From NCBI GenBank assembly GCA_903882875.1, contig CAIRYQ010000104.1, positions 1-44,934 of the forward strand: DNA of 44,934 nt, written 5' to 3'. The position numbers were made by a program, and so were the translations under genes. The notes beneath the pieces were generated by a model, which was not told where the DNA came from, did not search any database, and saw only the letters and a list, made by a program, of their open reading frames with translations. Positions 5,251 through 36,901 of the stretch are shown here, piece by piece. This DNA is from an uncultured Spartobacteria bacterium. GTDB lineage: Bacteria; Verrucomicrobiota; Verrucomicrobiia; Chthoniobacterales; Chthoniobacteraceae. Position 1 is the first letter of the stretch, and each line of letters begins with the position of its first letter.

Positions 5251-5253
5251 ACG

Positions 5254-10783: not shown

Positions 10784-10800
10784 ACGCGCTCCACCGCGCT

Positions 10801-10842
10801 GTCGCGCCTTCATCGTCGCGCCTTCATCGTCGCGCCTTCATC
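10801..10842. repeat. 14-nt tandem repeat, three perfect units
   Basis: GTCGCGCCTTCATC is repeated three times without mismatch. The sequence differs from the neighbouring array but the 14-nt period is the same. Confidence 0.9.
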
Positions 10843-10874
10843 CGATGGCGACCGCCCTTTGCCTTGACCGGCCT

Positions 10875-11069: not shown

Positions 11070-11084
11070 GCGGGGAGGATGCAC

Positions 11085-12275: not shown

Positions 12276-12285
12276 AATGCGCGCA

Positions 12286-12571
12286 CCCCCAGGGTCGCGA
12301 CCAGTCCCCCCGTGGGTGGGCACCGCTCACCCCCAGGGGGAGCAGCGCCGACCCCCTGGGGGACCGATGCCCACCCCGTGGGGGACCGATGCCCACCCCC
12401 GGGGTCAGCACTGCCCACCCCCAGGGTGGGCGGCGCTCACCCTGCCAGTCAGCGCCGCTCCCCCCGTGGGTCAGCACGACGATCCCCCGGGGTCAGCAGC
12501 GCCCACCCAGGGGAGGAGCGCCGCTCCCCCCGTGGGATGCCGCCGCCCACCCGGCGGGGCAGCGGGAGGCA
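12286..12571. repeat. Array of 13 units of 22 nt (C-run/G-run repeat)
   Basis: 286 nt, which is exactly 13 x 22. Each unit starts with CCCCC, one or two variable bases and a G-run, followed by a linker such as TCAGCACTGCCCA or ACCGATGCCCA. Unit starts are 12286, 12306, 12330, 12352, 12374, 12396, 12418, 12440, 12460, 12484, 12506, 12526 and 12550. The 20-nt units are compensated by 24-nt neighbours, so phase is kept. A partial unit follows at 12572. Each C-run/G-run pair can form a small hairpin. It lies between the HU/DUF4469-like gene and the TPR gene. Confidence 0.85.
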
Positions 12572-12641
12572 CCCCGATTTGCAGACTTGCGGCACCCCGC
12601 ACTCATTTCATAGACTCGACCCAAGCACAGCACCCATCCCC

Positions 12642-17871: not shown

Positions 17872-18444
17872 GGTCTGTCGGCAGGAAAGGACGCGCAGGG
17901 TCGGCGTCCGCGCGGTCATTTTGCAAGCAGCAACGCGACGCCCCGCTCACCGGCACCAAACTCGGCAGTCGCCTGATTTGCCGTTTGGTGTCGGAGAGTG
18001 AGGGGCGGCCTGGAATGGCGCTCACTGATCGGGAATCGTGCAATAGGTCCTTCTCTGGCCACCGGTGCGAAGGCGATTCTTGCGTGGGAGCGTACGCGTT
18101 TGGTGGCCCGGTTTGTCACACTCAGCGCGCTGAATCTGTTTTTCCAAGGACCGTCGCTGCCAAGGCCAGGCAACCGCGGAAAGTAGGCGCCCTCCACGCC
18201 GAAAAGAGGTGTTCCGGAAGAATTTCCTTAAGCTCGGCATGACCGGCGTCGTTCCGGCACTCCGAAGCATGGTTCTCCCCTATTTCCTGAATCTCAACCA
18301 AACCGGCTTACAGGACTTTCCAAAGAAAGCAGAGCAATAACACGCTGGGGAAATGCTGACGAGATCACTTTGCAGAGCATCTGAAAAACCTCCGGACGCA
18401 CCCGGAAAATACCCTGCCATCAGCGTTTCCCTTTGAATTGTGGC
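17872..18444. other. Intergenic region, nothing recognised
   Basis: About 570 nt between the ABC exporter start and the stop of the first porin. Short frames occur on both strands, but none has a recognisable protein pattern or leader. I found no clear terminator for the porin here. Confidence 0.5.
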
Positions 18445-19998
18445 CTAGAAGTGTAAGACCACGTCAACCTGAGCGCTGAACTGGTTTTTGCGCAGGCCGT
18501 TGTCGAACGCGGGGACGCTATACGCGTGGTCGTACCGGATTTCGGGGCGGATGGTCACGATCTTGTTCGGCCACCAAGTGAACCCGAGGGAATGTTCCGA
18601 GTAGATGTTCTTGTAGCCGGTGCGGTTTCCGCTGCAATCGTCAAAGACCTCGTTTCGGAGCGTGAAGAAGGAGCCGGGGCCCGTCCGGTACATGGTGTAG
18701 TTCAGGACTGACCATTCGTGGACTTGTCCGCCCGTCACCGGGAAGGCTCCATTCTGGTATGGCACATTGTATGTCGGGCCCGTGGTCGCGCCAATCTGGT
18801 ACATGTACCAAGTTTCGGTGGAGGTCCACCACTTCTCATTGAAGGTGTGGGTCCAGGTGGCGACGAATTGCTGGATATTGTTATAGCCAAAGTGGGCATT
18901 GTTAAATGAATTGGCCCCGCCGTAGATGGAATCCTTGTTGTTGTTGGAGATCCATTGCATCATCACCGTTCCCGTGAACTGCCGGCCCACGTCCGACTGC
19001 CAGGGGGCGACATCGTTTCCTCCAGAAAGCCCGAGTTGCACAATCCAGTTCTTGTTGAGCTTGGTTGTCGTGAAAATGCCCCACATCGTGTACGGATCAA
19101 ATGCGTACATGAGCGAATGGCTGGACATCAGGTTGTTCGGGGCGAGCTGTGCCTCGATGTCCGCAAGGGAAATCAGGCGACCGATACGGACGTTGGTTCC
19201 CTCGCCAATCCACGGGATGTACCAGTCGAAGTACATCATCGGGAAATCCCAGCCGTAGTACTTGTTGCTCTTGATCAACTGGTCGCTAATGAAACCGCGG
19301 GAGATCATGTAACGATAGTCCAGACCATAGACGGCGGAAAGGCGGAAGCCCCAGTCCATGTGATCGGTCTGGAACTCATCCGGCACTCGCTCCAGATACA
19401 TCACGAACTGGTTTTGCTCAATTCGGTTGGAGCGGGAGTCGTAGGCCTCCGGGAAGTTGTTGCTCTGTCCGCGGGAGGTGTTGTGCGAGGTGCTCGCGTT
19501 GCCAGAAATATCCTCCCAACCGTAGAACTGAATCCGGCTGTTCTTGATGGCCTCCCCGTGCGGACCGTCATAAAGCGCCTGCATGAGCGGTCCCGGCGCG
19601 GTAATGCCTGCATCGCCAATGATGGGACTGCCGCCAAGCTGCCATTCCGCAGTCGGATACGGAGGCCCGTCATACGGTGCTGGAAACCCGCGACGGCCGG
19701 GCGTGGCCACCACAGCCTTTGCGCCGGCAGCAGGCGGTTCCGGCGCGACATAGCAGGGGGCACCCATTTGCTCGCGGAAGTCCACATCCAGACGTTCCCA
19801 AAAGGACATGTGCAACTTCTTTGCAGCCGATTCACTGGCCGCCGCCGCCTCCGCTTCCTTGGCCCTGGCAGCCGCGTTTGCGGCTTCCCTGGCCTTCTTC
19901 TTGGCTTCAGCCGTTTCGGCGAATGCGGTCGTGGCGATCCCGGCGAATGCGGCAACGAGGAGTGTGAGTGTGACGTGTTTGGATCCGTGCTTCATCAT
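18445..19998 (-). CDS. Outer-membrane beta-barrel porin, OmpL-like (paralog 1)
   Basis: 517 residues. A signal peptide (KHVTLTLLVAAFAGIATTAFA) is followed by an Ala/Lys/Glu-rich periplasmic helix and the cluster motif SFWERLDVDFREQMG. A barrel of about 400 residues with alternating aromatic strands follows (IQFYGWEDISGNAS, WGFRLSAVYGLDYRYM, FPMMYFDWYIPW, VRIGRLIS, IVTIRPEIRYDHAYS), ending ...VVLHF. The terminal Phe is typical for BamA-dependent barrels. It belongs to the putative beta-barrel porin-2 (OmpL-like) family and is one of three paralogs here. Transcription is likely from the sigma-54 promoter at 20092-20108 through a C/A-rich leader of about 85 nt. The solute is unknown. Confidence 0.85.
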   Translation of the reverse strand: MMKHGSKHVTLTLLVAAFAGIATTAFAETAEAKKKAREAANAAARAKEAEAAAASESAAKKLHMSFWERLDVDFREQMGAPCYVAPEPPAAGAKAVVATPGRRGFPAPYDGPPYPTAEWQLGGSPIIGDAGITAPGPLMQALYDGPHGEAIKNSRIQFYGWEDISGNASTSHNTSRGQSNNFPEAYDSRSNRIEQNQFVMYLERVPDEFQTDHMDWGFRLSAVYGLDYRYMISRGFISDQLIKSNKYYGWDFPMMYFDWYIPWIGEGTNVRIGRLISLADIEAQLAPNNLMSSHSLMYAFDPYTMWGIFTTTKLNKNWIVQLGLSGGNDVAPWQSDVGRQFTGTVMMQWISNNNKDSIYGGANSFNNAHFGYNNIQQFVATWTHTFNEKWWTSTETWYMYQIGATTGPTYNVPYQNGAFPVTGGQVHEWSVLNYTMYRTGPGSFFTLRNEVFDDCSGNRTGYKNIYSEHSLGFTWWPNKIVTIRPEIRYDHAYSVPAFDNGLRKNQFSAQVDVVLHF

Positions 19999-20091
19999 CT
20001 ACTTTGGTGCAGAAAACTCTGCGTTTGGTTGGGTGGCAGTGTGGTTGGGTTCCGAGCATGGAATGGAGTTCCGTGCAGGATGCGCGCCCTC

Positions 20092-20108
20092 TAGCAAAGG
20101 ATATGCCA
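20092..20108 (-). promoter_or_regulatory. Sigma-54 promoter for porin paralog 1
   Basis: TGGCATATCCTTTGCTA on the minus strand. The -24 GG and -12 GC are 12 nt apart, as required for RpoN. An upstream element at 20176-20208 is shared with the promoter at 24928. Confidence 0.75.
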
Positions 20109-20175
20109 CCTAGGGCAAAGGCTCGGTTCCCTCTGAAAATGAGTGCCCGCGGACGAATCTCCGGTCCGTACCGCT

Positions 20176-20208
20176 GGCGATAGGCAAACAGGCTGCTCGA
20201 AATCGCGC
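20176..20208. promoter_or_regulatory. Candidate sigma-54 activator site upstream of porin 1
   Basis: GGCGA, 5 nt, AAACAGGCT, 5 nt, AAATCGCGC. The same blocks with the same spacing occur at 25015-25047. In both cases the centre is 85-87 nt upstream of the -24 element, the usual place for an enhancer-binding protein. Confidence 0.5.
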
Positions 20209-20339
20209 AGGCGGATGACATTTGGATGATAGAATGAAATGGGAAAGTGCCACCAAAGCGTTTTCGGAAAAAGTGCGGCCACTTTCAAAGTTCCAAGGTC
20301 TGAGTTCCCGTGCTTATCCGGTTGCCTGACAAAAAGACA

Positions 20340-20410
20340 AATTAGGAAGGCAGGAAGGTAGGAAAGGAGAATTTCCGTCCTTCTTTTCCTGCCTTCCTGC
20401 CTTCCTAATT
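20340..20410. repeat. Inverted repeat built of 8-nt units
   Basis: Arms at 20340-20365 and 20385-20410 match at 25 of 26 positions. Each consists of AGGAAGGC/AGGAAGGT/AGGAAAGG-type 8-mers, with a 19-nt spacer. Confidence 0.85.
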
Positions 20411-20450
20411 CGATTCTTCCTCCGATTGGCAACAAACCGGATTAGCATGT

Positions 20451-20564
20451 GAGTTCCGAGTCCAAGTTCCGCCCGCCGCAGGCACGGTAGCTTGGGACTG
20501 CGTTGTGATGCCGTGGTGCCGTTGCGCGGGGCCGAACTCAGAACTCAGAACTTGGAACTCAGAA
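20451..20564. repeat. Heptad repeat with imperfect inverted arm
   Basis: The right arm 20534-20564 reads GAACTCA, GAACTCA, GAACTTG, GAACTCA, GAA. The left arm 20451-20469 (GAGTTCCGAGTCCAAGTTC) is its imperfect inverse complement. Confidence 0.75.
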
Positions 20565-20647
20565 AAAAAACCGCACTTTGAACGGCTGTGTGACCCATGC
20601 AGAATGCAACTCCAGAAATGCCGAAATCGTGCAAAGTGCGGCATCTC

Positions 20648-20730
20648 AAAAAACGCCGGAGCATTCCTCCCTCACGTCCGAATCCCGCGCAAGACCCACG
20701 CAAGAGGCCCCGATGCCACCGGCGTTTTTT
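20648..20730 (-). terminator. Terminator-like inverted repeat with large apical region
   Basis: AAAAAACGCCGG (20648-20659) and CCGGCGTTTTTT (20719-20730) are perfect 12-bp inverse complements separated by 59 nt. On the minus strand the second arm ends in a T-run. It begins at the stop codon of the aspartic protease gene, so it probably ends that transcript. The 59-nt loop is unusually large. Confidence 0.5.
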
Positions 20731-21568
20731 ATTTCTGCGAGAGCAGAAGCCGCATCCTTGCGGCGTCGAAAGTCACAGTGAATCGCGAAAGCAGGCCGTT
20801 GCCCAGCAGTCCCGCTTCGCCATCGAAGATTGGGGTCTCGTGCAGGCCGGTCGGTACGGCGGCGAGGTGCAGGCTGCCAAGCTGCACCGCAGTGAGCACG
20901 CTGTGGTGCGAGCCCGCAACGGCGGCAATGGATGTGCCAGCCTTGGTTTTCCTGCCGTGCGCGACCTTCAGCCATTCGAGGGAGGAGTCGCAACCGGTAT
21001 CCACGCGCACCCAGCCGGGCGGCTGGGCATTCACGGAAAGCCGCACGCAGTAGGCATCACCGCGCAGGGACAAAGGCAGCACCTCACAGGCACCGGAAGG
21101 CACTTCGCCACGGGAGAGGAGCCGGATTTTCTCCGCGCGGAAATCCACCTGCACGATGTGCCTGCGGAAAAAGTCTGCGCCGAGCAACCCGTCAATCCGA
21201 CGCCCGCATCCCGCGCTCACTGCGCTGAGGTCCACGGCTAGGCGCGGGGGCGGGAGTGCAACGCCGGGCAGATTCAATTCGATTCCTGCGACCTGGTAGG
21301 CCGTGCTGCTGCCGCCGATGCCGAGCACGGTCTGCGGCGTGTCCAGCTTCTGGCCAAGCGCCCGCGCGGCACGCAAATCAATCACGCCCACGCCGGCACC
21401 GGAATCGAGCAGGAAGCGCAGCGGCTTGGCGTGGCCGGTGGCGGAGACGTTCAGCCAGATAAGCCCGTCGCGGTGCTCAAAGGGAATCTCGGTCGCCGCA
21501 TTTGCCCGGCTCAAAAGCGGCAAAATGAAGCAGGCGAAGAGTGAAAATATCAGGCGGTATTGATGCAC
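20729..21568 (-). CDS. Periplasmic retropepsin/pepsin-like aspartic protease
   Basis: 279 residues from GTG 21568. A signal peptide (YRLIFSLFACFILPLLSRANA) precedes two aspartic-protease-type half domains. The first active-site motif is LLDSGAG (D55) and the second is RVDTGCDSS (D190). Flap-like and glycine-rich segments (LGIGGSST; RRIDGLLGADFFRRH) are conserved in form. Two D-T/S-G motifs in one chain suggest a pseudo-symmetric pepsin-like enzyme rather than a retropepsin homodimer. GTG 21568 was chosen because it directly precedes the signal peptide. The sigma-54 promoter at 21580-21596 would start transcription only about 2 nt before it, so the message is probably leaderless. Confidence 0.75.
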   Translation of the reverse strand: MHQYRLIFSLFACFILPLLSRANAATEIPFEHRDGLIWLNVSATGHAKPLRFLLDSGAGVGVIDLRAARALGQKLDTPQTVLGIGGSSTAYQVAGIELNLPGVALPPPRLAVDLSAVSAGCGRRIDGLLGADFFRRHIVQVDFRAEKIRLLSRGEVPSGACEVLPLSLRGDAYCVRLSVNAQPPGWVRVDTGCDSSLEWLKVAHGRKTKAGTSIAAVAGSHHSVLTAVQLGSLHLAAVPTGLHETPIFDGEAGLLGNGLLSRFTVTFDAARMRLLLSQK

Positions 21569-21579
21569 GCCGCGCCTGT

Positions 21580-21596
21580 TAGCAACCGACGTGCCA
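21580..21596 (-). promoter_or_regulatory. Sigma-54 promoter for the aspartic protease gene
   Basis: TGGCACGTCGGTTGCTA matches the RpoN consensus at every fixed position. It lies only 12 nt upstream of the GTG start. Confidence 0.8.
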
Positions 21597-21708
21597 CGCC
21601 CATCGGATTCAGATTTGAACCTGATAAGCGGAACCGGCGAAATCCCGGTCCGCAAGGCAATGCACAAAACGAATCAGGCAAGCCCCCATTTATTGCTCAT
21701 TGCGTAAA

Positions 21709-21760
21709 AAAAACAACATCCCGCAGCCTCGCATTGTGAAGCCGCAGGATGTTGTTGGTT
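21709..21760 (-). terminator. Rho-independent terminator of the small secreted protein gene
   Basis: The inverted repeat AACAACATCC/GGATGTTGTT has an inner GC-rich pairing and is followed on the minus strand by a run of eight T. It lies about 90 nt downstream of the stop at 21851. Confidence 0.8.
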
Positions 21761-21850
21761 TCGAGGGGATTGGGGGAACGATGCGCCGGTTTTACCCCAC
21801 GGCGCGTCTTTCGTGACGCTTCGCGGGATGGGAACAGGCGGTCGGTCAAT

Positions 21851-22093
21851 TCAGCGCCAGCGATGCGAGGAACTGACGGGAGTCGGCGTAGGGGCTGCCT
21901 TGCCGGTCGGGGTCTGCGTGCCAAGGCCTTTGCCATGGGAGAAAACTCCGATGGTGGGGCTCTTGGCGGTTTTGCCCTTGGCGGGCTCGGTCAGTGCGGC
22001 ATTGCGCGGCTGGACCGTGAATGGGAAGGCCATTGCCGAAGCCGTGAATGCCGTGGCGATGCCGATCAGACTGAGTTTGGTGATGATTTTCAT
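21851..22093 (-). CDS. Small secreted Pro/Thr-rich protein
   Basis: 80 residues with a clear signal peptide (KIITKLSLIGIATAFTASAMA). The mature part is about 58 residues, rich in Pro, Thr, Lys and Gly (AALTEPAKGKTAKSPTIG, GTQTPTGKAAPTPTPVSSS). I recognise no family. The gene is credible because it has its own sigma-54 promoter (22184-22200), a leader of about 80 nt and a strong terminator (21709-21760). It lies between the aspartic protease and the porins under the same kind of promoter, so it may be a cell-envelope component of the same regulon. Confidence 0.7.
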   Translation of the reverse strand: MKIITKLSLIGIATAFTASAMAFPFTVQPRNAALTEPAKGKTAKSPTIGVFSHGKGLGTQTPTGKAAPTPTPVSSSHRWR

Positions 22094-22183
22094 AGGTCAC
22101 TTTGTTTTGGGTTTTACATAATGGATGCGATGGATTCCCGCCCGAATGGTGATGGGGTTGGGGGGTTCCAAACACCTCCAAAT

Positions 22184-22200
22184 TAGCAAACCCTGCGCCA
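22184..22200 (-). promoter_or_regulatory. Sigma-54 promoter for the small secreted protein gene
   Basis: TGGCGCAGGGTTTGCTA on the minus strand. A sigma-70-like pair, TTGACA with TAATTT at 16 nt, overlaps it, so either sigma factor is possible. Confidence 0.65.
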
Positions 22201-22558
22201 CTGTCAAGTAGGCGGGGCGAAGGTAGTGGCTCAGTTTGGAAATTTCCGGTGCTCCGCATCCACGAAAAACACACAGTCTCGCGCGCGTACGCGTAGGCGC
22301 ACGCGCGCACGCGCTCCTGTTTTTGGGTCCGTGTCTGGGCGGGAAAGGAAAAGACAGCGGCACCGGTGCCGCACGCGCGCCGGCCGCCCCACTCAGGACC
22401 GCCGGTGGTTTTCAAACTGAGCCGTTACCGGGGACGAAACCACACGCAAGTCTTCAATTTTTTCGAGGTGAAAATGTGGCCACCGCACCATGCGCGGCAC
22501 GTAAGAACGGAAGAAACGCTGGCGTCAGCTCACTTGCATTTCGCCGGGCCAGACGCTC
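22201..22558. other. Intergenic region, no gene recognised
   Basis: About 360 nt between the sigma-54 promoter and the terminator of porin 2. It contains an alternating CG-rich stretch (about 22280-22315, GCGCGCGTACGCG type) and no credible frame. Confidence 0.5.
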
Positions 22559-22607
22559 AAAAAAGAAAATCCCGCCTGACAGGCGTGAGCCCATCAGGCG
22601 GGAGAAT
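22559..22607 (-). terminator. Terminator of porin paralog 2
   Basis: Stem TCCCGCCTGA (22570-22579) with TCAGGCGGGA (22594-22603), followed on the minus strand by TTTTCTTTTTT. The 41-nt core 22567-22607 is identical to 25140-25180. Confidence 0.88.
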
Positions 22608-22671
22608 CTTCCAACTTGGTTTGTTCCCGGAGGAACACTCACCAAGCCGGACGCAATTCCATCACTTTTGG

Positions 22672-24330
22672 CTAGAAGTGGAATGTTGCGTCAATGACGA
22701 ACGACAACTGGTTTTGACGCGTCCCGTTGTCATAGGCACCGCTCACAGTTTCAGGAAGTCCCGTGGCATTATACGCGGCGGTGGAGCTTGCCAGACTGTT
22801 CCGTTTCAGGGAGCGGTCAAAGCGAATCTCAGGGCGGATGACGAGCAGCTTGTTCGGCGACCAGTTGAGACCGATGGAACTCTCGAAATAAGACGAGGAA
22901 TAAGCCGAACGGTAGCCGTACGGATCATCCCACCACTCATTGCGGAAGGTCAGGATCGTATTGGGTGCGAGCCGGAACATCGTGTAGTTGAGAATGCCAG
23001 CCGTCCAGACAGTGCCCGCCTTTGTGGGATAGAAGCCGTCCTGAAACGGAACCGTTACCATGCCCGCGTTGTTGGTCGTAGCCGCGGCCGTCACCTGGGC
23101 GTGGTGGGTGTACATGTACTGGGCCTCGAAGGTGGTCCACACCTTGTCGTTGAACTTATGGCTGTAGCTCTCAATGCATTCATTGAGGTTGTTGAAGCCA
23201 AAGTTGCCGCTGTTGATCGAGTTCATGCCGATGTAGAAGGAGTCCTTTCCTCCCGGCGCGATGTACTGAAGGTTGAACGACCCGGTGGGAACGCAGCCCT
23301 TCTCGTGGAGAGTCCTTCCCGCCCAAGGAGCCGTGTCAACACCGGTGGAGATACCCGCCTGAAGCGTCCATCGGCTGTTCAGTTTCGTGATCGCCCACAG
23401 ACCCCACATTGTATAGTTGTCAAAGCTATACACGAGGGAGTGCGTGGCCATGATGTTGTTCGGCGCAAGCTGCTGCTCGATGTCGGGCATCGAAATGATG
23501 CGTCCGATGAGGAGTTCCATGCCCTGAAGGACGTGCGGGAAGTACACGTTGAAATACATCATCGGCATGTCGAAGCCGCTGAACTTATTCGACCTGAACA
23601 GGTTTGTATCGTTGAGGAAACCGCGTGAACCCATGAAGCGGTAATCCAGACCGTAGAGGAGTGCGATGCGGAAGCCCCAGTCCATGTGGTCTGTCTGGTT
23701 CATGTCGGCCATGCGCTCAATGTAGAGCACATCCTGCTCGTTCTCCACGCGGTTCCCGCGCTCGCTGTACACCATCGGGAAGTTGTTCAACTGGCTCAAC
23801 GAGGTATTGTGGGAGCTGCTGACGTTGCCGCTCACCGTGACCCAGCCGTAGAGCTGGATGCGGTTGTCATACCACCATTTCCCATTGGGGCCGTCATAGA
23901 TGGCCTGCATGAGCGGATAGGGCGAGTCCCGAAGGGCTCCCGGATCACCGATCACCTGGGGACCGCCGCCGATCTGCCAGTCACCGGTCGGGAACGGCGG
24001 ACTGTCGAACGGCGGATCACCAATGCGGCGCGAAGGCGCGGCAACGGCCTTGTCACCCGGCTTGGGCGGGGCGGGCGGGGTAAAGCATTGCATTGCGCTC
24101 TGCTCGGCAAATGCCTCATTCAGACGCTTGAACCAGCTCTCATTGGCTTTCTTGCCGTAATGCACCGTGTCTGGCGCAACCACTGCCTTGGCTTCCTCCT
24201 TCTTCTTCTTTTTCTTCGGCTTCGCGTCCGCGTCAGCGGCGAATGCGACCGTTGTGATTCCGGCCAATGCCGTAATCAGGAACGTGAGCGGGGCGCGCTT
24301 CGTTCCGAATTGTTTGAACATGTGTTTCAT
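22672..24330 (-). CDS. Outer-membrane beta-barrel porin, OmpL-like (paralog 2)
   Basis: 552 residues from ATG 24330. Signal peptide (APLTFLITALAGITTVAFA), Lys-rich stretch (PKKKKKKEEAK), then the motif ESWFKRLNEAFAEQSAMQCF. A barrel closely related to paralog 3 follows (DWQIGGGPQVIGDPGALRDS, WYDNRIQLYGWVTVSGNVSS, RIALLYGLDYRFMGSRGFL, LLVIRPEIRFDRS), ending ...DATFHF. Start 24330 is preferred because upstream codons fall in the C/A-rich leader. It has its own sigma-54 promoter (24444-24460) and terminator. A passive channel role in the outer membrane is inferred from the family. Confidence 0.87.
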   Translation of the reverse strand: MKHMFKQFGTKRAPLTFLITALAGITTVAFAADADAKPKKKKKKEEAKAVVAPDTVHYGKKANESWFKRLNEAFAEQSAMQCFTPPAPPKPGDKAVAAPSRRIGDPPFDSPPFPTGDWQIGGGPQVIGDPGALRDSPYPLMQAIYDGPNGKWWYDNRIQLYGWVTVSGNVSSSHNTSLSQLNNFPMVYSERGNRVENEQDVLYIERMADMNQTDHMDWGFRIALLYGLDYRFMGSRGFLNDTNLFRSNKFSGFDMPMMYFNVYFPHVLQGMELLIGRIISMPDIEQQLAPNNIMATHSLVYSFDNYTMWGLWAITKLNSRWTLQAGISTGVDTAPWAGRTLHEKGCVPTGSFNLQYIAPGGKDSFYIGMNSINSGNFGFNNLNECIESYSHKFNDKVWTTFEAQYMYTHHAQVTAAATTNNAGMVTVPFQDGFYPTKAGTVWTAGILNYTMFRLAPNTILTFRNEWWDDPYGYRSAYSSSYFESSIGLNWSPNKLLVIRPEIRFDRSLKRNSLASSTAAYNATGLPETVSGAYDNGTRQNQLSFVIDATFHF

Positions 24331-24443
24331 CGTGTTACTCGTGTTGTGTGGTGGTGCAGGGTGTCCTGCGGTTGGTTTGGTGGATTTGCGGTTCTGCGCG
24401 CAAAACTGGTTTTTTAGGGAAACCAATTTCGCTCCCGCACCGT

Positions 24444-24460
24444 TAGCAAAGGGCGGGCCA
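24444..24460 (-). promoter_or_regulatory. Sigma-54 promoter for porin paralog 2
   Basis: TGGCCCGCCCTTTGCTA with correct GG/GC spacing. The predicted transcript has a leader of about 104 nt. Confidence 0.75.
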
Positions 24461-24927
24461 CGAAGTAAAGTTCTGTGGCAGAATTTTTATTTTTCGTCGT
24501 AAGTCTTTGAAAAACAGAATAAATCGCGTTTCAAATTGTTTCTGAAAAATCGCCGGAGCCGTCCTGAAACGCATCACCATGCATGAAACATTTGGCGGAA
24601 AAAAACCAGCCTGCCCAAATTTGCCCACTAGTCTTTGCGGGATGAATGCCGGGGCCAAAACACTGTGCAGAAGGCCCATGCCGACCTCCATTTGGAGACT
24701 GTGAAGAAAACTCCGCCAGCGACTGGAACACGGTCGTGCCGGCTGTGAGTGGCGGCGGGCCTCCGGCCAGCCGGTTCCCGAGGCAACAGGCTGGAAGCCT
24801 TTTTGCCCTGACAGGCGAGGACGCCTGTCTTCGCCACGACTTCTTCACATTCCTTTGCCTTCACACCGCTCTTGCGGCCTTCTTTGCTTTCTTGCTTAAA
24901 AAAAGTCCCGTGCGCGGGTGCGGACCT
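24461..24927. other. Region behind an orphan sigma-54 promoter, no intact gene
   Basis: The promoter at 24928 points into this region, but no frame here resembles a porin or any other protein family. It contains small palindromes (GACAGGCGAGGACGCCTGTC at about 24808; CAGGCTGGAAGCCTTTTTG at about 24789). It may be the remains of a deleted gene. Confidence 0.5.
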
Positions 24928-24944
24928 TAGCGAAGGGTATGCCA
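24928..24944 (-). promoter_or_regulatory. Orphan sigma-54 promoter
   Basis: TGGCATACCCTTCGCTA on the minus strand, one change from the -12 consensus (TCGC for TTGC). No intact gene follows. An upstream site like that of porin 1 is present at 25015-25047. Confidence 0.6.
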
Positions 24945-25014
24945 TCACGTCCAACGACCCCTGTTTCTTCTCACAAACTGGGGCTTTCAGAAATCACTTG
25001 AGGCACCGCACATT

Positions 25015-25047
25015 GGCGAACGCGAAACAGGCTCGTCAAAATCGCGC
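25015..25047. promoter_or_regulatory. Candidate sigma-54 activator site upstream of the orphan promoter
   Basis: GGCGA, 5 nt, AAACAGGCT, 5 nt, AAATCGCGC, identical in blocks and spacing to 20176-20208 and at the same distance from its promoter. Confidence 0.5.
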
Positions 25048-25132
25048 GGCCGGTTCGCGATTGAAACAACGGAAGGAATACCGCCGCGAAGTCTCTTGAA
25101 CATCACTAATCCAGACGTTCCAAAGCCCCCAT

Positions 25133-25180
25133 TCAAAGGAAATCCCGCCTGACAGGCGTGAGCCCATCAGGCGGGAGAAT
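25133..25180 (-). terminator. Terminator of porin paralog 3
   Basis: Same 41-nt stem-loop as for porin 2 (TCCCGCCTGA at 25143 and TCAGGCGGGA at 25167), followed on the minus strand by a short T-rich tail. Confidence 0.85.
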
Positions 25181-25250
25181 TCCCCTTGGCCGGAAGCCTG
25201 CCCCTATGTCTTAAAGGAACACTTCCAAGCCGGGTGCGATGCCACTTGGC

Positions 25251-26912
25251 TTAGAAGCGGAATGTCGCATCGATATTAAAGGACAATTGGCTTTGCCGGG
25301 TGCCGCTGTCGAACGGGCCGGCGAAGGTCGCGGGCGCGCCGGTCGTGTTGTACTGCGCCGTGGAACTGGCCAGACCATTGTGTTTGTAGGCATGGTCGAA
25401 GCGAATCTCCGGACGGATCATGAGGAGCCTATTGGGAAACCAGGTAATGCCGATGGAGTGTTCGCTGTAAAGCGATGCGTAACCCGACCGATAGCCGCGA
25501 GGATCGTCCCATACCTCGTTGCGGAGCGTGAGGAACGCGTTGCCCGCAAACCGGTAGAAGGTGTAATTGAGAAGGCCGGTCCCAAAGGCGCGGCCGGCCT
25601 TGACGGGGTAGAACCCGTCCTCGATCGGTACCTTCGCCGTCGGCCCCGTCGTAGCGCCATTCGTGAACATGTATTGGAACTCGAACGTGGTCCACCACTC
25701 TTCGTTGAACTTATGGGCGTAACTTTCGATGCACTCCTGGAGATTGTTGAAGCCGAAGTGACCGTTGTTAAACGAGTTCATCCCGACGTAGAACGAGTCC
25801 TTCTGGTTGTTGCTGATAAACTGGAGATGGGACGAGCCCGTCGGTTGGTTGCCGGGGTCGTGCAGATTGTGCCCCGCCAGAAAACTGGTGTCCACGCCGT
25901 CCGACATTCCTATCTGCCAAGTCCAATTCTTGTTGAGCTTGATTGTGGCCCAGATGCCCCAATCGGTGTAATCATCGAAGGCATATACGAGCGAATGGCT
26001 GGCCATTGGGTTTTGCGGCGCAAGCTGCTGCTCGATGTCCGGCATGGAAATAATGCGGCCGATGATGACGTTCATGCCCTGCGCAACCTGGGGAAAGTAC
26101 ACATTGAAGTACATCATCGGGATGTCGAAGCCTTGTTGTTTGTTCTTCACGAACAGGTTTTGGTCGTTGAGAAAGCCTTTCGAGGCCATGAACCGGTAGT
26201 CGTGGCCAAAAAGAAAGGTAAAGCGAAAGCCCCAATCAATGTGGTTTTGCTGGTCCATGTCGGCGAGGCGTTCGAGATAGAGCACTTCCTGGTCATTGAT
26301 GATTCGGTTTGCCTGGTCGCCATAGACTGAAGGGAACGCATTATTAGGAACGGTGTTGTTATGCGATGAGCTTATGTTCCCGCCCACGGTCACCCAACCG
26401 TAGAGCTGGATCCGGTTGTCATACCACCATTTCCCGTTGGGGCCGTCATAGAGGGCCTGCATCAGCGGATAGGGCGAGTCACGCAGCGCACCGGGGTCGC
26501 CGATGATGTTTGGACCGCCCCCAATCTGCCATTCCCCGTTGAAATACGGCGGCGAATCGAATGGTGCAGGACCTGCACGACGACCCGCAGGTGCGGGTGG
26601 AACAACGGCCTTGGCGTCCTTGGACACGGGAGCTGACTGCGCTGGCCACGGCGGGGTGTAACCGGGCTGTCCGCTTTGCTCGAAAAATGACTCATTCAGA
26701 CGCTTAAACCAGCTCTCATTGGCCTTCTTGCCGTAATGCACCACTTCTGGTGCCTGGACTGTCTTGGCCTCCTCGGCCTTCTTGTTCTTTTTCTTCGGCT
26801 TTGCAGCCGCATCGTCGGCGGCAAATGCGACCGTCGAGAATCCGGCTAGGGCCGTAATCAGGAACGTGAGAGGGGCGTGCTTGGTCCCGTATTTCATTGT
26901 CGTGTTTTTCAT
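25251..26912 (-). CDS. Outer-membrane beta-barrel porin, OmpL-like (paralog 3)
   Basis: 553 residues from ATG 26912 (ATG 26897 also possible). Signal peptide (APLTFLITALAGFSTVAFA), Lys-rich stretch, cluster motif ESWFKRLNESFFEQSGQPGY. The barrel is very similar to paralog 2 (EWQIGGGPNIIGDPGALRDS, DNRIQLYGWVTVGGNISSSH, LLMIRPEIRFDHAYKHNG), ending ...DATFRF. The signal and terminator sequences are nearly identical to those of paralog 2, which points to recent duplication. The sigma-54 promoter is at 27009-27025. The barrels differ mostly in the extracellular-loop-like stretches, suggesting divergence of solute or phage exposure (inference). Confidence 0.87.
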   Translation of the reverse strand: MKNTTMKYGTKHAPLTFLITALAGFSTVAFAADDAAAKPKKKNKKAEEAKTVQAPEVVHYGKKANESWFKRLNESFFEQSGQPGYTPPWPAQSAPVSKDAKAVVPPAPAGRRAGPAPFDSPPYFNGEWQIGGGPNIIGDPGALRDSPYPLMQALYDGPNGKWWYDNRIQLYGWVTVGGNISSSHNNTVPNNAFPSVYGDQANRIINDQEVLYLERLADMDQQNHIDWGFRFTFLFGHDYRFMASKGFLNDQNLFVKNKQQGFDIPMMYFNVYFPQVAQGMNVIIGRIISMPDIEQQLAPQNPMASHSLVYAFDDYTDWGIWATIKLNKNWTWQIGMSDGVDTSFLAGHNLHDPGNQPTGSSHLQFISNNQKDSFYVGMNSFNNGHFGFNNLQECIESYAHKFNEEWWTTFEFQYMFTNGATTGPTAKVPIEDGFYPVKAGRAFGTGLLNYTFYRFAGNAFLTLRNEVWDDPRGYRSGYASLYSEHSIGITWFPNRLLMIRPEIRFDHAYKHNGLASSTAQYNTTGAPATFAGPFDSGTRQSQLSFNIDATFRF

Positions 26913-27008
26913 CGTGTTTGGTGGTGTGGGTTGTGTTGTGTTTGGTGTGGTGTTTGTTTCGTGTGCAAAACTTGTTTTTTATGCAAAACTTGCTCTGGCA
27001 CAGATTCT

Positions 27009-27025
27009 TAGCAAAGTTTGAGCCA
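27009..27025 (-). promoter_or_regulatory. Sigma-54 promoter for porin paralog 3
   Basis: TGGCTCAAACTTTGCTA with correct GG/GC spacing and a leader of about 87 nt. The leader contains a direct repeat of CAAGTTTTGCA-type sequence. Confidence 0.75.
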
Positions 27026-27274
27026 TCATGTTTCGCGCCCCGTTTTCAGCTTGTGAGCAGTGCGTCATAAGTCGTCCAAAATCAGGCGGAAAGTGCGTGT
27101 CCAAATTTCTGAAAGTAATTTTCAATGTCAGTGCGGGGTGTGCGGAAAAGTGCCTTTCGCGTGTCGGAAAAATGTCAGTCTGTCCAAAATCACCCACCAT
27201 TTGCGATCCAACCGGGGCAACGGCCACCTCCATTCCGCGCGAGATACTTCTTTTCCAGTGAAGCACGGGGCCTT

Positions 27275-27697
27275 TCAACTGTGCGGCGGGTTCTCCCGTT
27301 CATACGCCGCAAACACTTCGGAGGGCCGCAATCCCAACCCTTCCGCGAGTCTGAGGATGTTGTGCAATTTGATGTTTGGCTCATCCTGCGTTTCTATCCG
27401 TGAAAGCGACGGCTTGCTGCAACCGCTCAGACGCGCGAGTTGAGTCAGGCTCAAATTCCTGCTTTCCCTCAAACGCTGAATCGTCCCACCGAATCCGCTT
27501 CGAGGTTCCCGCACCCGCCCGGTCCTTCGCAAGCACGCCAACTGAGCCTCCAACCTCGCGACTTTCTGCTGGAGTTCTTCCGCCGAGCCGGATGAAGGCA
27601 AATCGTCTTTACGTCTTTGCTCCAACGGAAATCGCAGTGTCTGCGGTTGCATGATTGCCGTTGCAATTCTTGTTTGGGAACTGTCGTATGTATTCAT
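27275..27697 (-). CDS. XRE-family helix-turn-helix regulator with N-terminal coiled coil
   Basis: 140 residues from ATG 27697. A short coiled coil (AEELQQKVARLEAQLACL, about residues 40-57) is followed by a Cro/CI-type HTH at about residues 75-130 (IQRLRESRNLSLTQLARLSG, CSKPSLSRIETQDE, ILRLAEGLGLRPSEVFAAYE). This is a DNA-binding regulator, probably dimeric through the coiled coil. It has its own sigma-54-like promoter (27803-27819) and lies at the upstream end of the porin cluster, so it is a good candidate to modulate that regulon. It is not an AAA+ sigma-54 activator, which must be encoded elsewhere. Confidence 0.8.
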   Translation of the reverse strand: MNTYDSSQTRIATAIMQPQTLRFPLEQRRKDDLPSSGSAEELQQKVARLEAQLACLRRTGRVREPRSGFGGTIQRLRESRNLSLTQLARLSGCSKPSLSRIETQDEPNIKLHNILRLAEGLGLRPSEVFAAYERENPPHS

Positions 27698-27802
27698 GGT
27701 CAGCGGTGTGAGTGTTCTTGTTTGGCGTCCTGTTGGTTTCATGCGGAAAAACCGACCGCATGAGGCTTTCCATATAGGATTTGGTATGATGCGCGCCGTC
27801 CC

Positions 27803-27819
27803 TAGCAGCGAATGTGCCA
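27803..27819 (-). promoter_or_regulatory. Sigma-54 promoter for the XRE regulator gene
   Basis: TGGCACATTCGCTGCTA: perfect -24 box, -12 box CTGC instead of TTGC, correct spacing. Confidence 0.6.
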
Positions 27820-28089
27820 GAATAAAAAACCGAATCGCTAACTACACGGCTAGAGATATTTACGAACTTCGCGATGAAATCGCTCCTTTACCGAGTCGTG
27901 CATTGTGCATGATTTGCGACTTTCGCAAGTTGCATTTTGCCTGACGGTTCATGCGGCCTCGCGTGTGAGGCAGAGCACGCTTGGAATGGTGCTGGAAACA
28001 GCTGATTCCCAGGCCGTCCGATGTATCACGAGATGCACGGGACACTGGTCGTCCGTGTTTATTTCCGTTTCACGCGTGCGACCGCCCGA

Positions 28090-28545
28090 TCAATGCTGCA
28101 CGGTCGGCTCGGGATGGCATCCGCAGCCGGTGCCGCATCCGTCGGCACTTTCAGGAGCGGATTCGCCGACTACGCGGACGGCGAATTTCATATCCTGAAG
28201 GGCGATGTGTTCGCGGACGGCGGCGATGAAATGCTCGGCCATCGAGTCAGGCGGCACAGCGCAGTCGAGTTGGAGGCGGACGGGCTTGCCGACGAGGTGC
28301 GGGAAGGCATCCGTCATCTCGCCGTCGAGCGCGAAGCTGAGGTAGGCGTTCACTTTTTCCTGAAGCTGGAAGATGCGCTGCTCGGAGCCGTCCCACGGGC
28401 GCGGCTCCACCATGATGAGGACGGTCTCACCCGTCTCGCCGTCGAATGCGAGGGCGTCGAGACTGCGCGGATTTTCGACACCGAAGGCGTTCGCATTTTC
28501 GGAATCGGGCTCGGGCGCTTGGTGCTGGCAGCAGGAATCGCTCAC
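28090..28545 (-). CDS. DUF6572 family protein with cysteine-rich ends
   Basis: 151 residues, no signal peptide. The core (LDALAFDGETGETVLIMVEP, EQRIFQLQEKVNAYLSFALD, AEHFIAAVREHIALQDM) has the pattern of DUF6572 proteins, whose function is unknown. Unlike the minimal family it begins SDSCCQHQ and ends DGCGTGCGCHPEPTVQH; these Cys/His-rich ends could bind metal (inference). It is divergent from the quinone oxidoreductase gene, with 48 nt between the starts. Confidence 0.7.
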   Translation of the reverse strand: MSDSCCQHQAPEPDSENANAFGVENPRSLDALAFDGETGETVLIMVEPRPWDGSEQRIFQLQEKVNAYLSFALDGEMTDAFPHLVGKPVRLQLDCAVPPDSMAEHFIAAVREHIALQDMKFAVRVVGESAPESADGCGTGCGCHPEPTVQH

Positions 28546-28593
28546 AATGCAAAGGGATGGACGAGCAGCGGCGATCTGTCAAAGACTGCGTTG

Positions 28594-29571
28594 ATGAAAG
28601 CGATCCTTGTGCGGGCCTTCGGCGGCCCCGAAGTCCTCGAACTGTGCGAAACGCCCGACCTCCAGCCGGGGCCGGGCCAGGTGCTCGTGCGGCTGATGGC
28701 CGCGGGGGTGAATCCGGTGGAGGCCTACATCCGCTCCGGCGCGTATGCGAAGCTGCCGGAGCTGCCGTTCACGCCGGGTTCCGATGGCGCGGGCGTGGTG
28801 GTGAGTGTGGGTGCCGATGTGGATTCGCGGCTCCGGCCAGGGCAGCGCGTCTGGGTGACAGGCCGCGGAAGCGGGACCTACGCGGAGGCGGCGCTGTGCG
28901 AAACGGGAGGGGTGTTCGCATTGCCGGACGACGTGACTTTTGAACAAGGTGCCGCGCTGGGCATCCCGTATGCCACCGCATACCGGGCGCTCTTCCAACG
29001 CGGTGGCGCGAAGGCGGGCGAGACAGTGCTGGTGCATGGCGCAACGGGCGGGGTCGGCGTGGCAGCGGTGCAGTTTGCAAAAGCGGCCGGGCTGCGCGTG
29101 CTGGCGACCGGCGGGAGCGAAGACGGGCGCAGATTGCTCGCCGCACTCGGAGCCGACGCGGTCTTTGACCACAATGCGGCGAATTTTGCGGATGCGATCC
29201 GTTCTGAGACAGGCGGCAAGGGTGTGGACGTGATACTTGAAATGCTGGCGAATGTGAACCTCGCACGCGATCTCGCGCTGCTCGGACGCAACGGGCGGGT
29301 GCTCGTGATCGGCAACCGCGGAAGCATCGAAATCAATCCGCGCGACCTGATGCTGCGCGACGCAGACATTCGCGGCGTGATGCTCGCGAACACTCCTGCC
29401 GCCGAACTTGCGGAATGTCACGCGGCGATCAACTCGGCACTCGCCGTTGGAAAAATCAGCCCGGTCATCGGCAAAACCCTGCCCCTCGCGCAAGCGGCGG
29501 AAGCTCACCGGATCATCCTCGGACACGGACACCGCGGGAAGGTCATTTTGCAAACCGGTTCGCCGAAGTAA
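28594..29571 (+). CDS. NADPH:quinone oxidoreductase (zeta-crystallin type, MDR family)
   Basis: 325 residues. It starts MKAILVRAFGGPEVLE, typical for zinc-free medium-chain dehydrogenases of the QOR/zeta-crystallin group. A GroES-like N-terminal domain (AAGVNPVEAYIRSG, PGSDGAGVV) is followed by a Rossmann domain with the NADPH-binding motif VHGATGGVGVAAVQFAKAAG and the C-terminal block HRIILGHGHRGKVIL. No zinc-binding Cys pattern is seen. It probably reduces quinones or reactive carbonyls in the cytoplasm. ATG 28594 aligns with the family start. Confidence 0.88.
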   Translation: MKAILVRAFGGPEVLELCETPDLQPGPGQVLVRLMAAGVNPVEAYIRSGAYAKLPELPFTPGSDGAGVVVSVGADVDSRLRPGQRVWVTGRGSGTYAEAALCETGGVFALPDDVTFEQGAALGIPYATAYRALFQRGGAKAGETVLVHGATGGVGVAAVQFAKAAGLRVLATGGSEDGRRLLAALGADAVFDHNAANFADAIRSETGGKGVDVILEMLANVNLARDLALLGRNGRVLVIGNRGSIEINPRDLMLRDADIRGVMLANTPAAELAECHAAINSALAVGKISPVIGKTLPLAQAAEAHRIILGHGHRGKVILQTGSPK

Positions 29572-29691
29572 TCAAGCAGAGAAACATCTCATCTGCGACA
29601 AATAATTCCGGGGTCTGCTTGTTCACTTGAAAACCACGGATCTCACGAGGGTGAAGCACATTAATAATAATTCACCGTTCCAAAAAAGATG

Positions 29692-29708
29692 TTGCACTGA
29701 TTTTGCCT
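29692..29708 (+). promoter_or_regulatory. Possible sigma-54 promoter for the plus-strand barrel gene
   Basis: TTGCACTGATTTTGCCT has the right spacing but T for the first G of the -24 GG pair. About 60 nt of C/A-rich leader would follow. Confidence 0.35.
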
Positions 29709-29778
29709 CCCTGCTAAAAACCGGACTGTGCCGAAAGGCTCACAGTAGACAACCACAACACACCACCACTAAAACACC

Positions 29779-30714
29779 ATGAACAAACACACCACCACGT
29801 TCGCAGCATTCGCTGCGGCTTGCCTCGCAGGTTCCACCGCCTACGCCGGCCCTGCACCCGCACAAACCAAGAAGGTAATCGAACCCGCGTCGGAATCCTG
29901 CATCACTGGCGACATCGGATTCGATGTCCTCAGCGAGTACATCCATCAGGGCATCGTGAAGCAGAATCAGGGCTTCATCATTCAGCCTTATGCCGACCTG
30001 CACTTCCGCATCTACAAAGGTGCGGGCGCACTCACGTCCGTCACGGTGGATCTCGGCGTCTGGGATTCGTTCCAGTCCAACCATCCTGTCGGAGGACCGT
30101 TCGGTGCACGCGGAGCCACAACCAAAAACTGGTTTGAAAGCGACTTCCAGAGCGGCCTGACGTTCAACTTCGACAAGTTGAGCATCGGCGGCTACTTCAA
30201 AGTATATGAGAGCCCCGCGTCAGCGTTCCCGAACGTCTACACCGGCGGCATCAATCTCGCCTATGACGACAGCGCCGCACTCGGTGCGTTCGCGCTGCAT
30301 CCGTACGCGCGGGTCGAACTTCAGTTCCAAGGCACCACCGGCAACGACTTCAACTTTGCCAATCCCGCCTTCCATGGCCGCGGCCAGTACTATGAAGTCG
30401 GCATCGCCCCCGGACACACTTGGGGTGCGTTCACACTGTCGCTGCCGATCACTGGCGGCTTCGGCTCCGGCGGCTACTACCTCGGAAACCGCGGCTTCGG
30501 ATTCATCTCCGTGGGAGCCCGTGCTGAATACGCGCTGCACTTTGTGCCCGCCTGCCTCGGCAAGTGGACGATTGGCGCCGGTGCCACCTACTACCGTCTC
30601 GGTGGTAACAATACGCTGCCCAACCTCAGCGGTGCGGCTGGCCGCAGCCCCGCTCAGGCCGTCACGGACAAGAACCAGCTCGTGTTCCAAGGCGGCCTCA
30701 AGGTCGCGTTCTAA
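29779..30714 (+). CDS. Predicted outer-membrane beta-barrel protein
   Basis: 311 residues. Signal peptide (TTTFAAFAAACLAGSTAYA), then alternating beta-strands (GDIGFDVLSEYIHQGIVKQ, QPYADLHFRIYKG, SVTVDLGVWDSF, FHGRGQYYEVGIAPGHTWG, FISVGARAEYALHF), ending LVFQGGLKVAF with terminal Phe. The N-terminal part resembles Gcw_chp/TorF-type barrels, but this is tentative. It is preceded by a C/A-rich leader without Shine-Dalgarno site and followed by a strong terminator. It is probably part of the envelope gene set to its left, though on the other strand. Confidence 0.75.
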   Translation: MNKHTTTFAAFAAACLAGSTAYAGPAPAQTKKVIEPASESCITGDIGFDVLSEYIHQGIVKQNQGFIIQPYADLHFRIYKGAGALTSVTVDLGVWDSFQSNHPVGGPFGARGATTKNWFESDFQSGLTFNFDKLSIGGYFKVYESPASAFPNVYTGGINLAYDDSAALGAFALHPYARVELQFQGTTGNDFNFANPAFHGRGQYYEVGIAPGHTWGAFTLSLPITGGFGSGGYYLGNRGFGFISVGARAEYALHFVPACLGKWTIGAGATYYRLGGNNTLPNLSGAAGRSPAQAVTDKNQLVFQGGLKVAF

Positions 30715-36234: not shown

Positions 36235-36849
36235 CTATTCGCCGATCTCCAGCGCAGCGCCACCGCCGCCCTCTTTGTATACCGTGTCAATCGCGAGCCC
36301 GGCCGCGAGCAGCAGCGTCGCCGCCGCAGAGCCGGGATGATGCACCACAACAACATAGTTGTCCGCCGAGGTGAAAAGCTCCTTCGCGATGCCCGCCCAT
36401 TTTTTCGAGACGACACCGAGTGCGTCGCCGCCCGACGTGACGAAACGAAAATTCCATCCCGTCCAATTGCCCTGCACCACCGCGACCTCGTTGTCCGACG
36501 CATCGTACACGCCGAACTTCCCACCGAGCGTCATCAGCCGTGACTTGAACGTGCCGATGAGCGCCCCGTCGCCTGTGATCACTTTCACCGTCGGGCGGAA
36601 AAATGAAAACCCGCGCGTGATCGAAAACACGATCGGCCCGGTGATGTCCCTGCCCTCGTGGACATCCACGCGAGTCGGGAGATTTCGCTTCGCGATGAAA
36701 AGCCCTGCGATCGCATTCAGCGTCCCCTCTTTTTCCTTTGCCACCGCGAGCTGCTCGCCCGTCGCACCATCGAAAATGTCATACGTCGCCGTCAGCTTGA
36801 ACACACCCGCGTGTTCGCGGATGAGATACGCGGGAAGGGCTGGAAGCAT
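36235..36849 (-). CDS. Phospholipid-scramblase/LURP1-like (Tubby-type fold) protein
   Basis: 204 residues from ATG 36849. The pattern PALPAYLIREHAGVFKLTAT, FSITRGFSFFRPTVKVITGD, GTFKSRLMTLGGKFGVYDAS and GNWTGWNFRFVT fits the scramblase-related LOR superfamily: repeated beta strands around a central C-terminal helix (AATLLLAAGLAIDTVY). Bacterial members have no established role; membrane-associated lipid binding is inferred. It is divergent from mutY, with 52 nt between the starts. Confidence 0.75.
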   Translation of the reverse strand: MLPALPAYLIREHAGVFKLTATYDIFDGATGEQLAVAKEKEGTLNAIAGLFIAKRNLPTRVDVHEGRDITGPIVFSITRGFSFFRPTVKVITGDGALIGTFKSRLMTLGGKFGVYDASDNEVAVVQGNWTGWNFRFVTSGGDALGVVSKKWAGIAKELFTSADNYVVVVHHPGSAAATLLLAAGLAIDTVYKEGGGGAALEIGE

Positions 36850-36901
36850 GTTGGGGTTGCTGTGCGGCGCTGAAGTAGAAACCTTCTGCCAAGCCACAAC
36901 C

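Follow-up and report, generated by a model that had tools for sequence, protein, structure and literature searches.

What governs three porin genes that lie in a row on one strand of a Verrucomicrobiota contig, and which process might they serve? The stretch in question, hereafter the window, is contig CAIRYQ010000104.1 (C104; 44,934 nucleotides) of G000, the assembly GCA_903882875.1 of an uncultured Spartobacteria bacterium (order Chthoniobacterales; 5.78 Mb in 129 contigs, 96.2% complete, 1.9% contaminated). A first-pass annotation, made from the letters of the window alone, had proposed that the porins and their neighbours form a cell-envelope regulon under sigma-54 (RpoN), with seven sites of the -24/-12 type. 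Having compared promoter class by conservation, the architecture of tandem sites, activator orthology and gene linkage in relatives, we regard the block as probably, if with some reserve, a detached and amplified porin branch of a sigma-54/potassium regulon, derived from a locus in which an enhancer-binding protein (EBP), a porin and the kdp genes stand together. The comparison thus suggests that switch, activator and channel would all originate from a potassium-uptake operon.

The sites themselves were located as the first-pass annotation had reported, all seven being exact matches to TGGC-N9-GCTA on the minus strand, with GG and GC 12 nt apart. An eighth site of comparable score, absent from that annotation, lies outside the block.

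27803..27819, minus strand: -24/-12 site, TGGCACATTCGCTGCTA, upstream of the XRE gene
27009..27025, minus strand: -24/-12 site, TGGCTCAAACTTTGCTA, upstream of porin 3
24928..24944, minus strand: -24/-12 site, TGGCATACCCTTCGCTA, without an adjacent gene
24444..24460, minus strand: -24/-12 site, TGGCCCGCCCTTTGCTA, upstream of porin 2
22184..22200, minus strand: -24/-12 site, TGGCGCAGGGTTTGCTA, upstream of the small-protein gene
21580..21596, minus strand: -24/-12 site, TGGCACGTCGGTTGCTA, at the 5' end of the protease gene
20092..20108, minus strand: -24/-12 site, TGGCATATCCTTTGCTA, upstream of porin 1
36891-36907, minus strand: eighth high-scoring site, TGGCACGGTTGTGGCTT, 44 nt before a scramblase-family gene (36235-36849)

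Within the interval 18200-28100, TGGC and GCTA stand nine bases apart seven times and never at spacings of 4-8 or 10-15 on either strand; elsewhere in the window the exact pattern occurs only at 37208 (+), within a gene. On one strand of the 7.7 kb spanned by the seven sites, 0.04 would be expected from the 67 exact matches in 5.78 Mb, and first-order Markov shuffles of the block (n=3000) held 0.08 on average and two at most. Once a single mismatch is tolerated, the window shows no enrichment (20 matches versus a shuffle mean of 30.7), so that the signal consists of the exact form and its clustering; patterns with N7 or N8 spacing gave nothing above chance. According to our own gene calls, all seven sites are intergenic in a block whose non-coding share is ∼35%, and alignment of the three porin upstream regions showed TGGC and CTTTGCTA to be kept while the surroundings have drifted. 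A site matrix built from 49 sites upstream of rpoN and in genus mates, none of them from G000, scored the seven sites at 12.8-19.9; the only other window site in that range is the one at 36891 (18.1), the next best (9.3) falling within a gene.

Is this element a sigma-54 promoter? The first-pass annotation had named as refuting a pattern as frequent inside genes as upstream of them. Outside the window, 35 of 59 exact sites are intergenic and 19 of 59 lie less than 150 nt before a start, as compared with 13 and two, respectively, among 30 of the 61 matches to a control pattern with one additional base. The dinucleotide AC follows TGGC in 16 of 67 N9 matches versus 2 of 61 control matches, and TGGCN7TTGCW exceeds its backwards control only slightly (76 versus 62). 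Sites beginning with TGGCAC are intergenic in 13 of 14 cases in G000 outside the window. TGGCAC-N7-GCTA was found in all ten genomes of the genus; in the fetched genus-mate loci, 25 of 26 such sites are intergenic and 18 of 26 are less than 150 nt from a start, the genes behind them including two for glutamine synthetase (by Pfam) and a response regulator. Elsewhere in G000, sites precede genes for an NMT1-like binding protein and an MFS transporter. Besides, the same element stands upstream of rpoN of the genus in all five loci examined (L193-L195, L197, L201) and in L246, while L247 lacks the exact form. Among the named rpoN loci (L249-L323; counts refer to loci with enough upstream DNA, and L249, L253 and L254 are genus mates again), TGGC-N8-TGCT is present at -139 to -166 in 32 of 77 and absent from 45, a pattern one base longer occurs upstream of none of the 77, and of the 27 rpoN loci closest to the query, 26 carry the element. 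The site of rpoN itself thus supports the recognition element independently of the window, suggesting that rpoN in this clade may be under positive autoregulation by sigma-54. Being intergenic, placed before starts and conserved across genome and genus, the seven sites fit genuine -24/-12 elements, as the first-pass annotation had read them.

Similar sites were observed elsewhere. In G000, sigma-54-like sites lie before the starts of prepilin-like paralogs with an N_methyl motif (C6:90180-90878 and C12:529-1304; L011, L079), which are in tandem on C12 in a layout resembling the porin block, and ∼22 nt before the start of a gene for an outer-membrane protein of the FadL/TodX type by Pfam (C59:82657; L038). 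Candidate sites were also seen near distant genes of BBP2, the porin family of the window, in L046, L047, L048 and L348.

What, then, do relatives of these porins stand next to? No BBP2 match other than the three window porins exceeds the cut-off in G000, and a porin of their type was not found in any of nine genus mates. At E <= 1e-20, porin matches occur in 17 other genomes of the order (18 of 213 including G000), found by a genome search after one contig scan with the porin query had given no relative; the flanks of these 17 loci (L329-L345) were examined. In L329, L330 and L331 the order is EBP, kinase, regulator(s), porin, kdpA, kdpB, kdpC and kdpD, with amtB beside the EBP gene in L329 and L331, and with kdpA, kdpC and the KdpD sensor domain of L331 confirmed by Pfam. 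L345 has the same gene order but a distant BBP2 protein. In L344 (genome G035), a 6-kb contig, EBP and regulator genes accompany a broken porin frame and what is apparently a kinase remnant; the porin frame there (4201-5773) is in two pieces, and the preceding kinase looks reduced to a fused remnant. All five EBP-linked loci have a -24/-12 site (scores 12.7-20.2) in the interval between EBP and kinase (or, in L344, its remnant), and L331 has a further such site upstream of amtB.

Where the EBP is missing, predicted potassium importers are mostly still close by. L332, L333 and L338 combine kdp and porin, with kinase and regulator homologs beside kdp, while behind the porin of L334-L337 and L339-L341 comes a gene for an APC-type permease that carries a Usp domain, at a distance of no more than 7 nt in six of the seven. 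A related permease in L329 has the potassium importer KimA as its best match among solved structures (E 2.8e-6); the L336 permease, ∼41% identical to that of L329, had no PDB match at 0.01. This layout suggests that porin and KimA-like permease may be translationally coupled as an outer-/inner-membrane potassium pair. Altogether, 15 of 17 loci have a Kdp or KimA-like gene no more than ∼3 kb from the porin, the exceptions being L342 and the short L344. The porin of L342 is preceded by a weak site (9.3). On the other strand of that locus (10768-14196), we observed a strong site (14.8) before an APC permease gene with another BBP2 gene behind it, which may be a further permease-porin pair under sigma-54.

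When the 900 nt upstream of each of the 17 orthologs were scored against a hand-weighted consensus, the outcome had suggested that sigma-54 control is not conserved among them. We rejected this reading, since the EBP-linked sites lie further upstream, before the kinase, and the score is therefore misleading. Recent transfer of the porins was likewise not supported, as they sit on long branches; in the porin tree, porins 2 and 3 are sisters (100/100) and porin 1 is unplaced.

Which activator could serve the window? The first-pass annotation had noted that none is encoded there, and we found no EBP in the window either; a specific candidate, EBP_C20, lies on contig C20 of the same genome. EBP_C20 carries a GAFTGA motif and is one of six EBPs in G000 with a GAFTGA/GSFTGA loop. 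Over 439 residues, it matches the EBPs of L329 and L330 at 86% and 85% identity, respectively, and it shares 79%, 67% and 58% identity with those of L345, L331 and L344, all of them linked to BBP2 porins. No ortholog was found among all 40 EBP matches of the nine genus mates (best match at most 49% over 252 residues). Porins and EBP_C20 thus share their presence in G000 and their apparent absence from its nine genus mates. That C20 is a contaminant from the L329-L332 family was considered and discarded, its tetranucleotide signature fitting G000 loci and not theirs. As a separate observation, another EBP of G000 (contig C111; L134 2821-3738, 5327-6685) stands with a kinase and a divergent secreted-protein gene that has a sigma-54-like site ∼17 nt before its start; genes that by eye look similar to the latter, also with a site, occur in genus mates L182 and L183.

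A possible link between activator and block is given by a candidate upstream activating sequence (UAS). The dyad ATCGTGC-N4-TGCACGA was found upstream of the EBP-linked -24/-12 sites, and its best match in the whole 45-kb window, with one mismatch in 14, lies 94 nt before the site at 27803. When pairs were defined as two TGCANNNTGCA cores with at most one mismatch each, 31-32 nt apart, two were found between genes of the window:

27899..27941, minus strand: tandem UAS candidate, TGCANNNTGCA cores at 27931-27941 and 27899-27909, 32 nt apart, at -122/-90 from the first base of the site at 27803
20598..20640, minus strand: further UAS-like tandem pair with a spacing of 32 nt; its cores start 532 and 500 nt upstream of the site at 20092 (porin 1)

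A third pair, at 29033 (spacing 36, within a gene), is probably due to chance. Each of the five EBP loci has one pair. The cores have the same positions, -122/-90, in L329, L330 and L345 as at 27803 in the window; in L331 they lie at -122/-91 before a porin-proximal AGGC-type site, the kinase promoter having weaker cores at -122/-90, and in L344 at -132/-101. No pair was found in 15 EBP-less BBP2 loci (218 kb), 62 other G000 loci (240 kb), 30 G000 control loci (86 kb), 46 genus-mate loci (210 kb) or 80 rpoN loci (464 kb), locus sets that partly overlap (∼1 Mb for G000, genus mates and rpoN). Shuffled windows contained 0.08 pairs on average at spacings of 29-36, a statistic that is partly post hoc, since core motif and spacing were fixed after viewing the five relatives and the window. 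A UAS common to all seven upstream regions was also sought by k-mers, with 7-mers in four of seven as the best result. The tandem pair is likely the binding site of EBP_C20.

Do the block genes form an operon? The genes and the hairpins that follow them are these:

27275..27742, minus strand: XRE/HTH regulator, 155 aa (Pfam HTH_31, HTH_3), unlisted by a codon-based gene caller
25251..26912, minus strand: porin 3, BBP2 family, 553 aa (PF07642, E 7.3e-26)
25143..25176, minus strand: intrinsic-terminator-like hairpin after porin 3, a 46-nt repeat with 98% identity to its counterpart after porin 2
22672..24330, minus strand: porin 2, BBP2 family, 552 aa (PF07642)
22570..22603, minus strand: intrinsic-terminator-like hairpin after porin 2
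21851..22093, minus strand: small protein, 80 aa, N-terminus signal-peptide-like by eye, no Pfam or NCBIfam match
21712..21756, minus strand: intrinsic-terminator-like hairpin after the small-protein gene
20729..21568, minus strand: retropepsin-like aspartyl protease, 279 aa with GTG start (PF13650, E 2.3e-11 for a longer frame)
20569..20587, minus strand: weak terminator-like hairpin after the protease gene, 6 pairs
18445..19998, minus strand: porin 1, BBP2 family, 517 aa (PF07642, E 1.7e-27)
18389..18408, minus strand: weak terminator-like hairpin after porin 1, 8 pairs, 4 of them G-C

The hairpins after the three porins, the small-protein gene and the protease gene make separate transcription units likely, although the underlying scan gave 23 hairpins versus 12.9 in shuffles, so that many are expected by chance; after the XRE gene it listed none. 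Together with an RpoN-type site for each gene, this agrees with the earlier view that each gene has its own promoter and that the row is no operon. The start of porin 2 is more likely the ATG at 24330, downstream of its -24/-12 site. The site at 24928 may be a distal promoter of porin 2, as there is no same-strand terminator-like hairpin between it and the site at 24444. Since the site at 21580 ends ∼12 nt before the likely GTG start of the protease gene (21568), the transcript from it would be almost leaderless.

The porin assignment itself rests on Pfam scores of 91.6-97 bits to PF07642, well over the gathering score of 26.2, although the name of this BBP2/OmpL-like family is itself qualified as 'putative'. 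The match starts at residue 166-190 of the window porins, beyond a long Lys/Pro-rich N-terminal part, and all three reading frames are open, without stops. An AlphaFold2 model of porin 3 from three sequences consists mostly of strands after residue 226, at a pLDDT of 33.6, which is too poor to build on, and a PDB profile search with four porins gave just two weak, unrelated matches (E 0.018 and 0.11).

How could such a branch have arisen and how might it work? Ancestrally in the Chthoniobacterales, an NtrC-family activator (the EBP) would have acted on a tandem site at -122/-90 to drive an operon of kinase, response regulator, porin and kdpABCD. In the lineage of G000, the porin gene would then have become detached and risen to three copies, all of which have a -24/-12 promoter and a terminator of their own; the activator ortholog lies on another contig, C20. 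This direction of evolution is one that we infer. A kinase would phosphorylate EBP_C20, which would bind the tandem site and, by looping to the sigma-54 polymerase at -24/-12, open the promoter. In the relatives, kinase, regulator, porin and Kdp would all be produced upon activation. In G000 the products would be the XRE regulator and, via the second array or through longer looping, porins, protease and small protein; we infer both the binding of EBP_C20 and its action on the five promoters without a pair. The signal would probably be limitation of potassium, which fits the targets, or of monovalent cations, with ammonium as an alternative in view of amtB nearby, and the outcome, assuming a suitable ion selectivity of the porins, would be an outer-membrane permeability raised to match high-affinity uptake. 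The coordinated envelope remodelling of the first-pass annotation is, in this light, too vague a term, given that the relatives tie the porin and its sigma-54 activator to potassium uptake.

Several findings weigh against a porin branch of a sigma-54/potassium regulon. A genome-wide search with the pattern, as the first-pass annotation had called for, bore out its position upstream of starts and not its abundance, 67 exact N9 matches versus 61 for the N10 control being no excess. Twelve of the 17 porin orthologs have neither an EBP nor a strong site directly before the porin. A tandem pair accompanies only two of the seven promoters, at a distance of 500 nt in one case; for the remaining five, no core (at most one mismatch) was found within 600 nt, and the pair statistic carries the post hoc element described above. 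C20 (4.3 kb) shows neither kinase nor kdp, the rest of G000 not having been searched for kdp; neither kinase nor kdpABCD was among the window genes scanned, the window porins thus standing outside the EBP-porin-kdp linkage. Lastly, rpoN was not found in G000, whether by Pfam Sigma54_DBD (PF04552), which detects it in all nine genus mates, or with a congener RpoN as query (best E 0.84). Because six EBPs keep their GAFTGA/GSFTGA loops and sites are placed before starts, we assume a gap in the assembly (96% complete), and an assumption it is. If, instead, this lineage had lost rpoN, the sites would be relics and the porins silent or otherwise expressed; that rpoN was not found speaks for this, yet the intact loops, the sites before starts elsewhere in the genome, the open porin frames and an assembly in 129 contigs make it very improbable.

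A rather unlikely, though more serious, possibility is that another activator, of the nitrogen, pilus or envelope type, serves most of these promoters, EBP_C20 acting at most on the XRE gene and porin 1, and that potassium is not their common signal. Five further EBPs with the loop would be available for this, five of seven promoters are without tandem cores, the element precedes glutamine synthetase genes in genus mates and the NMT1-like binding-protein and MFS-transporter genes in G000, and amtB lies near the EBP in L329 and L331. Of the six EBPs, however, that of C20 alone has no genus-mate ortholog, matching the porins, and is linked to BBP2 porins in relatives. In another reading, one EBP array at 27.9 kb, perhaps with that at 20.6 kb, would serve all seven promoters by looping, in a co-activated cluster that is no operon. 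All promoters do point in the same direction, and pairs exist only at the upstream end and near porin 1, but sigma-54 activation across several kb would be unusual, and we deem this improbable. That the 17-nt motif is instead an operator of the XRE regulator of the block, and no promoter element, is scarcely credible: its TGGC/GCTA half-sites do form an imperfect dyad and the XRE gene has one, but the orientation is the same in all seven, mostly with TT before GC, and the motif also precedes unrelated genes in genus mates as well as rpoN. We stay with the porin branch of a sigma-54/potassium regulon as the best explanation.

The surroundings of the block bear on its history. G003 and G004 are the two nearest relatives as judged by the neighbouring PMT protein. 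To the right, G004 is colinear with the window through PMT, the barrel gene at 29779, a quinone oxidoreductase gene and DUF6572, after which different genes follow; in G003, colinearity stops after PMT, and in G001 none was seen. The block has a G+C content of 56.5% versus 61.6% in sampled G000 loci, and XRE regulator, protease and small protein have no relative at E <= 1e-3 in any other fetched locus. The apparent lack of the porins in genus mates, the breaks in colinearity, the lower G+C content and the companions without relatives fit a gain of the block in G000, loss in the genus mates being the alternative. The barrel gene at 29779, which the first-pass annotation had added to the set on account of a weaker plus-strand site, does not seem to belong to it: the best match there lacks the GG, the G004 ortholog has no such site at the matching place, and to us a sigma-70 promoter seems the better fit for both upstream regions. 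Between protease and porin 1 (20340-20410) we observed a AGGAAGGC-rich hairpin with 29-nt arms that are 93% complementary, possibly a small repeat element. Rfam returned sub-threshold matches only (sixteen miRNA models matched the hairpin at 20.3-20.4 kb, and there was one match to tfoR), and a tRNA search found none.

Sigma-54 control of potassium uptake has a precedent. The response regulator DVU3334 of Desulfovibrio vulgaris is sigma-54-dependent, has GAFTGA and controls its own kdp operon, kdpFABC; there, too, kinase and potassium sensor are separate, the sensor domain being accompanied by a Usp domain (PMC3333781, PMC4641369). That regulator acts on its own operon, however; the accessible sections of these papers describe no detached, multiplied porin branch, and the word 'porin' appears nowhere in those of PMC4641369. 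More generally, a comparative statement has portrayed sigma-54 as controlling the exterior of the bacterial cell, with envelope and transport as the fields in which RpoN genes act (PMC3162934), but the main text, as far as accessible, has neither 'porin' nor 'Verrucomicrobia', and kdp enters only through PTS-Ntr. The first-pass annotation knew of no description of such a set; as regards a sigma-54 porin-kdp locus in Verrucomicrobiota or a detached porin block, we found none in the open-access literature among the matches listed, while the broader theme of sigma-54 and the exterior is in print (PMC3162934). KimA (PDB 6s3k) resembles the permeases beside EBP-less porin orthologs in combining an APC permease with a Usp domain, but the similarity is weak and these permeases occur in relatives, not in the window. 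The Escherichia coli KdpDE-kdpFABC system has its counterpart in kdpA, kdpC and the KdpD sensor domain of L331, but the EBP-linked loci have a sigma-54 site and an EBP. What is new here, as judged from gene order, is a porin within a predicted operon of EBP, sigma-54 site, kinase, regulator, porin and kdpABCD in some relatives, and a porin adjoining a KimA-like permease in others.

To our knowledge, little is known about how the outer membrane adjusts to potassium limitation, most work on uptake having concerned the inner membrane. In the loci compared here, gene order connects a porin family with two unrelated potassium importers, and a repeated promoter-plus-enhancer architecture ties it to a specific sigma-54 activator. 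BBP2 porins may form a dedicated outer-membrane arm of high-affinity potassium uptake, partnering Kdp or KimA-like importers; in one branch a dedicated sigma-54 activator would control porins and importers alike, and in the lineage of G000 the arm would have been amplified into a multi-porin regulon that stands alone, a possibility that we put forward tentatively. An uncharacterised porin family thereby gains a function that can be tested, and a phylum for which regulatory data are scarce gains an activator-operator pair; the comparison also suggests a route to a new regulon, by gene detachment and amplification with the ancestral switch kept.

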